DNA from: Carnobacterium sp. 17-4 | GTDB lineage: Bacteria > Bacillota > Bacilli > Lactobacillales > Carnobacteriaceae | Assembly (NCBI RefSeq): GCF_000195575.1 | Contig: NC_015391.1 | Coordinates: 736,501-800,500, forward strand | Length of the DNA stretch: 64,000 nt | Direction: 5' to 3' | Shown: positions 25,937 through 34,274 of the stretch, piece by piece | Layout: each line of letters starts with the position of its first letter | How positions within the stretch are numbered: the first letter of the stretch is position 1 | Notes under the pieces: model-generated | Database searches by the model: none | Told to the model about the DNA's origin: nothing | Seen by the model: only the letters and a program-made list of their open reading frames with translations | Translations under genes and position numbers: made by a program

Positions 25937-26082
25937 GTTGAGAAAATCAAGCAGAAGCACCCGCTTCTCGCCTAAGTTGACGAAAGTGTCTCTGGGCTAG
26001 ATATAAACGATGATAACTTGCATTCGGTGTGAGTTAGAAATTATTTATAGGCGGGTTCATAATGAACTCGTCTATTTTTCTG
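25937..26082 (+). ncRNA. Ribosomal protein L20-type autoregulatory leader
   Basis: The leader before infC folds like the low-GC Gram-positive L20 leader: hairpin AGAAGC/GCTTCT (25953-25968), then CGCCTA (25969-25974), which can pair with TAGGCG (26048-26053) in the 5' arm of the downstream terminator. ACCCGC (25959-25964) is also complementary to GCGGGT (26051-26056). These are mutually exclusive states. In Bacillus, L20 binding favours termination; the same is inferred here. Confidence 0.8.
26048..26080 (+). terminator. Leader terminator of infC-rpmI-rplT
   Basis: An 11-bp stem with two G-U pairs (26048-26058 with 26064-26074), pentaloop, T5. Confidence 0.8.
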
Positions 26083-26119
26083 CTGTTCTTTCTCTCAAAT
26101 CTAATGGAGGTGTATGACC

Positions 26120-31297: not shown

Positions 31298-31330
31298 TAA
31301 AATGAATAAATTAAATTGGAGGCCTATATT

Positions 31331-32416
31331 ATGGAAGAAACAGAACTAAAGATGTTAAAAGAATTAACAGATGCAAAAGGAATTTCAGGAAACGAAGGAC
31401 AAGTAAGAGAGGTATTTGTAAAGTATGCAAAGCCTAATGCAGATAGTGTTAGTTTTGATGGATTGGGTAGTGTTATTGCCAAAAGTGTTGGAGATAAATC
31501 AGGCCCAAAAGTATTGTTCGCTGGACACCTAGATGAAGTTGGTTTTATGGTAACAAACATCACTGAAGAAGGTTTTATTAAATTTCAAACGATTGGTGGT
31601 TGGTGGGCACAAGTGATGTTGGCTCAACAAGTTCAAATTACGACAGGAAAAAATGACGTTATCCATGGAGTAATTGGATGTAAACCACCACATGTTTTAA
31701 CCGCCGAAGTACGCAATAAAGCATATGATGTTCAAGAGATGTTTATTGATATTGGAGCTTCATCAAAAGAAGAAGCCGCACAATGGGGAATCAAGCCCGG
31801 TGATATGGTAACGCCATATACTGAGTTTAGACGCTTAAATGGATCTAAATTTATATTGGCTAAAGCTTGGGATAATCGTATTGGAACAGCTGTTACTTTA
31901 AAAGTATTAGAAAATTTAAAAGCCGAAGGACATCCTAATAAAGCATTTGCTGTTGGAAATGTACAAGAAGAAGTGGGGTTAAGAGGTGCAAAAACAGCAA
32001 CTCATTTAGTAGATCCAGATATTGCTTTTGCATTAGACACTGGTACAGCTGGAGACACTCCAGGAATGACTGATAAAGAAGCAGATTCTAAACTAGGAAA
32101 AGGCCCACAAATTATCATTTATGATGCTTCCATGATAGCTCACAAAGGCTTGCGTGACTTTGTTGTTTCAGTTGCAGAAGAATTAAATATTCCTTTTCAA
32201 TATACTGTGATTGCAGGTGGAGGAACAGATGCAGGAAGTCAGCATGTAAGTAAAAATGGTATACCAGCATTAGCGATTACGGTTGCGACGCGTTACTTAC
32301 ACTCTCATACTTCAGTTATTCATGAAGACGATTACTTGAATACTGTAAAACTAGTTACAGAAGTCATTAAGCGTTTAGATAGCGATACAGTTGAAAAAAT
32401 TAAATACCACAGTTGA
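31331..32416 (+). CDS. M42-family metallo-aminopeptidase (second copy)
   Basis: 361 residues. Same fold and motifs as the gene at 8556: [45 protein letters not shown] and [10 protein letters not shown]. Probably a cytosolic oligomeric aminopeptidase acting on imported peptides; placement just after the OppA genes supports this. GGAGG is 8 bp upstream of ATG 31331; the in-frame TTG at 31316 overlaps that site and is rejected. No terminator follows immediately; the structured element at 32441 begins 25 bp later. Confidence 0.9.
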
Positions 32417-32440: not shown

Positions 32441-32732
32441 AAGAGAGTGGAATAAAAAGTGTTTAGGCCCGAATCTTCTAACGCACACCATATCTCTAAT
32501 GCGAATAAATTCGCAAGAGCTATGGCAACTGAAGCGAATAAGCGCAGTATGGTCATCGACCATTAAATAGAAGCACTGTAGGCTAAAGCCTAAGTGTATG
32601 ATGTCTGTACGTAGCTAAAGCAACTACAGGCATGACAAAGTGGACGTCGGGTCAGCTTTTGAAGCACGTTTTAGAATAAACATTCGCATATAGATAATAG
32701 GCTGGGATTTTTGTCCCAGCCTATTATTTTTC
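32441..32732 (+). ncRNA. Hairpin-rich intergenic element, possible dispersed repeat or small RNA
   Basis: About 290 bp of non-coding sequence with higher GC than its surroundings and a chain of hairpins. A: 32488-32525, nested stems CCATA/TATGG, CTCT/AGAG and TGCGAA/TTCGCA. B: 32549-32563, ATGGTC/GACCAT. C: 32574-32596, CACT/AGTG plus TAGGC/GCCTA. D: 32602-32637, TGTC/GACA plus GTAGC/GC-CTAC. Loops of A, C and D are all TAAA. It ends in a perfect terminator. No long ORF and no clear promoter of its own. Confidence 0.55.
32696..32731 (+). terminator. Terminator closing the structured element
   Basis: A perfect 12-bp stem (AATAGGCTGGGA with TCCCAGCCTATT), 6-nt loop, then ATTTTT. Confidence 0.85.
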
Positions 32733-32870: not shown

Positions 32871-34274
32871 ATGAAGAGAGCCAAAAAGAGAATTGCAGTA
32901 ATAGGCGGCGGAATAACAGGGCTAGTTACTGCTTATCGAATAAAACAGCAAATTGTAAATGAACAGCTGCCTTTTGAACTTATTTTATTAGAGTCTGCTC
33001 TAAAAGTAGGTGGTAAAATTTACACCATGAAGGTTGGGGACAACTACTTTGATCTAGGTGCTGAATCAATCGATGTTCGCTATCCCGAGGCAATGGATCT
33101 TATTAAAGAACTAGGTCTAATGGATCAGTTAGTTTATAGTGAAGGAAATAAACCAGATATCTTTTTTTACAATAAGTTGCATAATCTTAATTACCCAACT
33201 TACAAAGGTATTCCAGTAAGGAAAATGGATATTTGGAAAAGTGATTTACTAACATTCCATGGGAAAATGGCTAGTTTTAAAGACAATCTATTTCCCTTAA
33301 AACCCTTAGATAAAGATATTCAAATGAGTCGGTATCTCAAAAATCGATTCGGAGAAGAATTAGTAGAACATATTGTAGAGCCTTTCTTTTCAAAAGTTTA
33401 TGCTAGTGATTTGGATGAAATGGGAATAAAATCTTCCAAAGAGGTTATTTATTCATTAGAACAAAAGTATGGAAGTTTATCGAATGGTATTAAGCACCAT
33501 CCAGAATTATTGGATGGTTCGGGTAATTATGTTACTTTCCAAAAGGGATTAACTGTTTTAACGGATAAACTAACTGAAATTCTAAAACCACATATTCAAA
33601 CAGGTAAAAAAGTTTTTGAAATTAAAGAAGATACTGAAGGCACTTATATTATTGATATTAATCGAAAAGAGCAGATGCGGGTCGGTGCAATTTGTATTGC
33701 AACACCAGTAACCGAATATTCAAAACTAATAAAAAATGAAACTTTTGGACAAACTTTTGACCAAGTTGAAACAGCGTCTATTGGATATATTTTATTTAAA
33801 TTTAAAAAATCAGCTATTAAAAATGAACCAACTGGTTTTGGTGTAGTGACTCCTAGAAGAAATGATTCTTACGTAACATCAATTGTTTTTTTAAATAAGA
33901 AGTGGCCATTTCTTAAAGATGAAGAAGATGTCTTTATCGGAGTAAGTTTTGGTAGAAAAGGTGAAGACCTACTTGTTACATTGGGTAATAAAGAAATAGA
34001 AAAATCGATACTAAAAGACTTGGAAATCATACTTGGTATTACCGATAAGCCAATAAATCGAATTGTAAAACGTTGGCCTGATGCGATACCTCAGTACACA
34101 GTAGATCAAGAAGAAAAAACAAAAGAAATGATAGAAATGTTAAACCATGAATATCCGGGCATTTATATTTCTGGGATTGGGCTAGAAGGTTTTGGAATCA
34201 ATCAGTGTATTGGCCAAGCAAATAAAACAAGTAAGAACATAGTTGAACTTGTAAAAAAACAAAATTGTGTTTAA
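32871..34274 (+). CDS. HemY-like FAD-dependent (copro/proto)porphyrinogen oxidase family protein
   Basis: 467 residues, close to the ~470 of Bacillus HemY (CgoX). N-terminal dinucleotide motif G-G-G-I-T-G-L, then ESALKVGGKIYT, the mid-protein EPFFSKVYASDLDEM and C-terminal ISGIGLEGFGINQCIGQ closing the FAD site. In monoderms this family oxidises coproporphyrinogen III in haem synthesis. No other haem gene is in the window, and lactic bacteria usually lack the pathway, so the role is uncertain: a haem-salvage relic or another flavin oxidase. AAAGGGGGG lies upstream of the start. Confidence 0.75.
   Translation: MKRAKKRIAVIGGGITGLVTAYRIKQQIVNEQLPFELILLESALKVGGKIYTMKVGDNYFDLGAESIDVRYPEAMDLIKELGLMDQLVYSEGNKPDIFFYNKLHNLNYPTYKGIPVRKMDIWKSDLLTFHGKMASFKDNLFPLKPLDKDIQMSRYLKNRFGEELVEHIVEPFFSKVYASDLDEMGIKSSKEVIYSLEQKYGSLSNGIKHHPELLDGSGNYVTFQKGLTVLTDKLTEILKPHIQTGKKVFEIKEDTEGTYIIDINRKEQMRVGAICIATPVTEYSKLIKNETFGQTFDQVETASIGYILFKFKKSAIKNEPTGFGVVTPRRNDSYVTSIVFLNKKWPFLKDEEDVFIGVSFGRKGEDLLVTLGNKEIEKSILKDLEIILGITDKPINRIVKRWPDAIPQYTVDQEEKTKEMIEMLNHEYPGIYISGIGLEGFGINQCIGQANKTSKNIVELVKKQNCV

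Follow-up and report, generated by a model that had tools for sequence, protein, structure and literature searches.

Insertion sequences of the IS1182 family provide the closest described parallel to the locus reported here. According to the excerpts of the two accounts cited, the targets of IS1272 and TnSha1 are stem-loops, often terminators, which are chosen without sequence specificity (PMC5678879; PMC4923244). For IS1272, the same excerpts state that the stem-loop is deleted wholly or partly, that no target duplication is produced and that both orientations are found at one target (PMC5678879; PMC4923244). Small intergenic repeats form a second point of comparison. In the portions of PMC3049150 used here, the BOX, RUP and SPRITE repeats of Streptococcus pneumoniae show enrichment between convergent gene pairs, BOX has a modular build in which inner modules are optional, and SPRITE is terminator-like; target duplications are reported there for BOX and RUP, whereas none could be established for SPRITE. 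The STAR elements of Staphylococcus aureus, as described in the part of PMC3532100 drawn on, are interspersed intergenic repeats of a Firmicute and consist of direct repeats.

The locus lies in a stretch of 64,000 nucleotides from Carnobacterium sp. 17-4 (contig NC_015391.1, positions 736,501 to 800,500), referred to below as the window. We read positions 32441-32732 of the window as a non-autonomous transposable element (MITE) with IS1182-family ends that replaces a terminator and supplies its own, and we put the probability of this reading at about 0.84. The element proper extends from approximately 32443 to 32723, its borders having been set by comparison with other copies, and occupies the terminator position of the 366-aa upstream gene; the 467-aa downstream gene is the same neighbour in five congeners (Table 1). 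As a separate observation, the sole Rfam match in the window at gathering score was a Ribosomal protein L20 leader at 25943-26085 (RF00558, 60.5 bits). The stretch itself had no match in either the plasmid or the phage collection, and a record of these kinds was rejected as its source.

The fold of 32441-32732 had an energy of -103.2 kcal/mol, compared with an average of -66.6 for shuffled sequences (z -8.06; 0 of 200 shuffles equally good), and the opposite strand gave a z of -5.11. An initial annotation, made from the sequence alone, had described at least four hairpins in a row, three of them with a TAAA loop, and a perfect 12-bp terminator. Four hairpins and a strong terminator were recovered in the fold, and the TAAA loops were located at 32500-32515, 32574-32596 and 32601-32633, although the hairpins are in fact enclosed by a single long outer stem. 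The terminator likewise exists but is longer than described, with 14 perfect pairs at 32694-32727, or 17 counting G-U. In the core, GGCCCGA of the 5' arm pairs with TCGGGTC at 32647-32653, and the interior of the element forms a long quasi-palindromic hairpin. The annotation was also right that the segment has no protein-coding potential: only two open reading frames of at least 60 aa cross it (62 and 74 aa); both lie on the minus strand and extend back into the oppositely oriented upstream gene, and neither looks gene-like. A decayed protein gene was ruled out, since no frame of at least 60 aa fits. With a length of 292 bp, multiple copies and no gene-like open frame, the window copy has the characteristics of a MITE.

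Table 1. Features of the window copy and its neighbouring genes (positions in the window).
Feature	Position	Strand	Description
Upstream gene	31316..32416	+	366 aa; open reading frame; PepA/M42-aminopeptidase-like by eye
Left end, IS1182-type terminal inverted repeat	32443..32457	+	GAGAGTGGAATAAAA, 11/15 against GAGGCTGGGACAAAA
Core hairpin, 5' arm	32459..32473	+	conserved GTTT bulge, stem GGCCCGA
Optional module B	32474..32529	+	hairpin 32488-32525 with TAAA loop; also occurs inside ISL3-ended repeats
Core module C, apical hairpin	32530..32563	+	TGAAGCGAATAAGCGCAGTATGGTC-ATC-GACCAT
Optional module D	32568..32640	+	two TAAA-loop hairpins, 32574-32596 and 32601-32633
Core hairpin, 3' arm	32638..32678	+	AAGTGGACGTC, TCGGGTC stem, AGCTTTTGAAGCACGTTTTAGAATA
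Linker	32679..32693	+	AACATTCGCATATAG; similar in many copies, core to terminator
Terminator hairpin	32694..32727	+	formed by the right terminal inverted repeat and a further, opposed copy of its sequence
Right end, IS1182-type terminal inverted repeat	32709..32723	-	TAGGCTGGGACAAAA read on the minus strand, 14/15
Downstream gene	32871..34274	+	467 aa; open reading frame; FAD/NAD-binding, protoporphyrinogen-oxidase-like by eye; same direction as upstream gene

Nucleotide searches bore out the first of two proposals made for this segment, i.e., that it is a copy of a dispersed intergenic repeat. The genome of origin yielded 20 matching pieces, for which 13 distinct places, including the window, were fetched, some of them holding the terminator end only. 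Among 39 genomes searched, this one included, 14 had a match; all five congeners matched, and in three of the 14 (G016, G019, G034) the ends of the element alone did so. The restriction of the repeat to its genus proved too narrow, however, as the core was matched in 17 of the 48 genera searched across the order. As an observation in its own right, loci L011, L024, L013 and L026 of G034 and G019, which belong to another family of the order, have similar ends, GAGAGTGGGACAGAAA ... GAGGCTAGGA-TTTTT-GTCCCAGCCTC, around a different interior; from their sequence, we take both genomes to be Streptococcus.

The copies are modular. A core, GAGAGTGGGACAAAAAGCGTTTAGACCCGAATCACTGGAACGAATAAGCGCAGTATGGTC - GACCATCGAGCATTATTCGTGAAGTGGACGTCGGGTCTGCTTTTTGGAGCACGTTTTAGAATA, may receive block B in its left arm and block D in its right arm, and the window copy carries both. 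Module B is present or absent as a whole block from copy to copy, and module D, by which the 3' arm of module C is shortened in the window copy, also occurs in ISL3-ended repeats without the remaining core (L114 and L113, and L010 and L027 of another genus). The majority sequence of the left end among the aligned copies is GAGAGTGGGACAAAA. An IS1182-type right end was present at 12 or more of 15 positions in 51 of 89 copies, the window copy included, and copies ending in this way have, after the core, a AATATTCGTATAT-like linker and then a hairpin of the GAGGCTGGGA...TCCCAGCCTC type.

A possible parent was found by searching for DDE_Tnp_1_6 transposases and then reading the ends of the elements. 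Two congeners carry an IS1182-family insertion sequence of 1761 bp with identical 18-bp inverted repeats, GAGGCTGGGACAAAACCT, whose transposase scored 340 bits with NF033551 (IS1182; cut-off, 270). In the window copy, the ends agree with these repeats at 14 of 15 positions on the right and 11 of 15 on the left. Among 20 of 33 named loci that were examined, the same or nearly the same repeat was found in IS1182 elements of C. jeotgali, Alkalibacterium, Atopostipes and Marinilactibacillus and a close variant in that of S. cristatus, while five of the 20 gave no repeat. In another series, 26 of 30 fetched IS1182 loci were examined, and seven had GGCTGGG-type ends, the others having different ends or none. 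When 67 copies sorted as lacking ISL3-type arms were compared with GAGGCTGGGACAAAA, the right end agreed at 13 or more of 15 positions in 47 and the left end at 11 or more in 38, the filter behind this set being imperfect in that it let through decayed ISL3-armed copies (e.g., L087, L091) and wrongly excluded L033. A control scan of the outer flanks found such ends in 0 of 67 cases on the right and 1 of 67 on the left, and the same test on all 89 copies gave 48 right and 40 left ends. By eye, the 1761-bp element has a hairpin and a T-run just inside each end. Direct origin of the repeat by internal deletion of this IS1182 element was considered and dropped, as the likeness, also judged by eye, stops at the inverted repeat. 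In IS1182 elements of another subfamily, with ends like CAGACTGTAGACAAA (L331, L332, L334, L337, L340), inspection by eye showed the insertion sequence to be flanked left and right by a hairpin, as though the target stem-loop had been copied and not removed.

The core is also carried by a second kind of repeat in Carnobacterium. Copies such as L044-L047, L054-L059 and L086-L089 have the core and modules B and D in common with the window copy. They differ from it in their ends: L044-L047 and L054-L059 have long outer arms ending like GGCTCTATACTTTTTAGTGTTGATAG / GACTCTTCGTCAAATGGTGTTGATAG and no terminator hairpin, and by eye exact 8-bp direct repeats flank three sites (L054, L056, L059), with a 7/8 match at L046. 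A complete ISL3-family insertion sequence in a congener (transposase, 307 bits) has two distinguishable ends that correspond to these at 20-22 of 26 positions. Copies of this type are most plausibly ISL3-type non-autonomous elements. The window copy shares blocks B and D with them, so modules have moved between two kinds of mobile repeat, probably out of the ISL3-ended kind and into the window type.

Comparison of orthologous sites provided evidence for replacement. At the window locus, the neighbouring genes are the same in the five congeners, which lack the element and carry another, ordinary terminator hairpin there, and most other compared sites were likewise without the element, with another terminator hairpin in the ortholog. 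Under a strict test, i.e., a hairpin of at least eight pairs beside a T or A run, applied to a hand-listed sample of 48 orthologous loci, a hairpin was present at 27 of the 38 sites lacking the element and at all 10 lacking the IS1182 insertion sequence, although three of these 37 positives (L144, L229, L230) lie off the terminator position; 11 of the 38 element sites gave none. Control windows in the neighbouring sequence were positive in 1 of 48 cases. Left out of this sample were L149, where the match lies inside a gene, L174, which itself carries the element in reverse, the paralogous L180, L185 and L187, and matches without a fetched locus.

Several exchanges were clean, with no more than five unaligned flank bases, i.e., L037 against L192 and L188, as well as L032/L181, L041/L186, L102/L165, L103/L162 and L104/L150. 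The empty site at L192 reads ...AAAAAAA{AGCTTTGCAAAAGTTATCTTTTGCAAAGC}TTTTTAAATTTCTCC, and the filled site at L037 reads ...AAAAAAA[GAGAGTGG - 169 bases in all - CCCAGCCT]CTTTTTTAAATTTCTCC. The cleanest exchanges keep the A- and T-tracts on both sides, and no target duplication was seen by eye at the clean sites, as would be expected if the element moves like IS1272, which makes none according to the cited excerpt (PMC5678879). Alignment was not clean for L036, L107 and the insertion sequence copy L212, was clean on the right only for L206, and for L041/L190 ran inside the hairpin. In the window copy, the right border is clean; 25-35 bases of the left flank could not be aligned to two congeners, and its left border was therefore placed by reference to other copies. 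At the site orthologous to L103, another species carries the element in the opposite orientation (L174, the same place as L083). Separately, the copies L037 (G000) and L104 (G017), from two different genera, both stand behind genes that appear glnQ-like by eye, and the relatives read at these sites have plain terminators, which suggests that such a site was struck twice.

By analogy with IS1272, an IS1182-type transposase would act in trans and insert the element at the base of a target stem-loop, which would be lost on insertion, as proposed for IS1272. The right end folds into a putative terminator made of its own inverted repeat, by which the gene would regain a terminator; with a new terminator supplied in this manner, insertion would be nearly harmless. 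The genome of origin itself had no match to an IS1182 transposase. A parent IS1182 may have come and gone in this host, or the core may have another driver.

The second of the initial proposals, a small structured RNA, would make the element primarily a 3' UTR element or an sRNA that ends in its own terminator, with the transcript under selection. We consider this unlikely as the primary explanation; the covariation of the core speaks in its favour. A covariance analysis had been suggested as a check, and compensatory changes were indeed seen. In an alignment of 24 core copies, from which L007 had been dropped as mis-aligned and L105, L107 and L110 as identical there to L104, 7 of 39 pairs were changed on both sides, a result that none of 500 shuffles equalled. 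In 45 aligned core copies, a both-side change occurred somewhere at 38 of the 39 pairs, 93.2% of cells were paired, and the GTTT bulge and the CACTGGA/GAAGTGGACGTC loops persisted across families, with these pair counts and the loop persistence resting on an alignment that was fitted to the model. Neither the 500 shuffles nor slid partners came anywhere near the pairing score of the 45 copies (0 of 500 as high). When the 45 sequences were folded singly without the model, every one recovered half or more of the model pairs, and z was below -3 for 43. Unpaired internal-loop columns were better conserved than paired ones (mean 0.77 vs 0.68; 0.74 vs 0.64 when the first seven rows, all Carnobacteriaceae, are omitted). 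The terminator at the end of the element is also what a transcript of this kind would have.

Covariation alone does not separate DNA from RNA, since quasi-palindrome correction by itself yields compensatory changes. Rewriting of one arm to match the other is a known mark of such correction during replication. By eye, L036 (403-529) and L009 (1558-1681) each have an apical hairpin with one arm altered to a better complement of the other, and the rewriting in the two copies runs in opposite directions, a DNA-level process that weighs against reading the changes as selection on a transcript. The same correction would erase mismatches, yet the bulge and loops persist; something thus seems to need them.

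Gene context also weighs against a primary RNA. By a rough method in which gene direction was taken from open frames in 360-base flanks, both flanks could be called for 40 of the 51 copies with an IS1182-type right end, of which 18 lay between convergent genes, 1 between divergent genes and 21 within co-directional pairs (12 oriented like the genes, 9 opposite to them). In a looser, ISL3-filtered set of 48 copies, 24 stood between convergent and 1 between divergent genes, and of those beside co-directional genes 12 ran with them and 11 against. These counts weaken a strand-specific 3' UTR function and, as they show no clear strand preference, favour the DNA level. Together with the opposite orientations at a single orthologous site and the presence or absence of copies between sister species in place of terminators, they argue against a structured RNA as the primary explanation. 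Rfam had no match over the element at gathering score, and at five loci with other copies relaxed settings returned just scores far under the curated thresholds; a known Rfam RNA family was rejected on these grounds. A role in RNA is possible for the element.

The spread of the core bears on a further alternative, in which the core is moved by another enzyme that reads a folded single strand (REP/RAYT-like or integrase-like), the IS1182-type ends being a secondary association with terminators. The covariance model built from the 24 core copies matched 12 of 18 genomes of the family and, under stricter filters, 33 of 148 Lactobacillales genomes. At an E of up to 1e-20, 9 of the 33 core-bearing genomes had IS1182, as did 43 of the 115 without the core, so there is no association; co-occurrence gives the preferred reading no support and counts against it. 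The 24 core-bearing genomes that have no IS1182 match favour another driver, as does the presence of the core inside ISL3-ended repeats. So do the conservation of unpaired core bases across families and the tandem arrays, in which two or three core units of approximately 120 bp stand head to tail downstream of genes (L317 in G103, L318 in G124, L325 in G117). In copies from other genera and families the outline of the core is kept but not its stem sequences. Several copies of other families (e.g., L305, L308, L309, L311) nevertheless keep a comparable left end together with a right hairpin of the GGCTGGGA type, the loss of a terminator hairpin is the signature of IS1272, and in the open reading frame lists of the four stretches inspected, tandem-array loci included, no transposase or other mobile-element gene was recognised by eye. 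We regard this alternative as distinctly improbable. Another genome (G013) had 51 model matches; in the five copies read there (L267-L271), a perfect palindrome with CCAGCCTC...GAGGCTGG replaces the apical hairpin, and in L270 the right end is tandemly duplicated.

On the core itself we hold a tentative view, possible but on balance doubtful. The core would be a structural element of the whole order, in which the unpaired CGTTYAG, CACTGGA and GAAGTGGACGTC are largely fixed while the stems vary pairwise, as under selection by a reader of the folded DNA or transcript. It would be carried by two or more transposon chassis that are unrelated to each other (IS1182 and ISL3 ends), form tandem arrays and, together with the IS1182 end hairpin, have repeatedly become a host terminator. 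Some common GAGGCTGGGAC...GTCCCAGCCTC terminators of Lactobacillales may be end-to-end remnants of such elements.

Two other explanations fared far worse. Without any mobility, native terminators would have diverged in place and owe their likeness to gene conversion among terminators; the stems do differ from species to species, compensatory changes included, and quasi-palindrome correction can be seen, but sister species mostly have unrelated terminators and no 100-290 bp element at the compared sites, which makes this very improbable. That the window copy is a plain ISL3-family MITE, of the same kind as the ISL3-ended repeats with which it has the core in common, is hardly credible and was rejected: an ISL3 insertion sequence with the same two distinguishable ends lives in congeners and the ISL3-ended L046 matches the window copy at 86% over 32455-32678, but the match stops at the core and no ISL3-type arms or ends are visible in the window copy.

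The preferred reading, a non-autonomous element with IS1182-family ends, can be set beside the described systems. STAR and the element are both interspersed intergenic repeats of Firmicutes, and the comparison, made from partial descriptions only, differs in that STAR consists of direct repeats. The flanks of STAR may also bear a GTGGGAC-type likeness to those of the element. The likeness to BOX, RUP and SPRITE, drawn from excerpts, is one of architecture and context only, whereas the ends and empty sites of the element point to hairpin replacement of the IS1182 type. Given that SPRITE is described there as terminator-like and enriched between convergent genes, it may be worth the same test for hairpin replacement.

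In the open-licence papers searched, we found no description of this repeat, nor of small IS1182 passenger elements that replace terminators. As far as the cited excerpts go, the mechanism is already known from IS1272, and the repeat with its widely spread structural core is a variant that we did not find described. The preferred reading would give a concrete origin to a class of repeated terminators, namely mobile elements which put their own terminator in place of the one they remove, and would account for the spread of such repeats between genes at low cost. A widespread covarying hairpin without an Rfam match also poses the question, which can be tested directly, of whether DNA or RNA machinery is its reader. 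Most closely, and within the excerpts available, the element resembles IS1272 in the loss of the stem-loop, in showing no target duplication by eye and in occurring in both orientations at one site. Unlike IS1272, which encodes its transposase, the element encodes none, is approximately 100-290 bp long and carries a terminator at its own end, and would thereby extend the hairpin-replacing transposition of IS1272 to small passenger elements.
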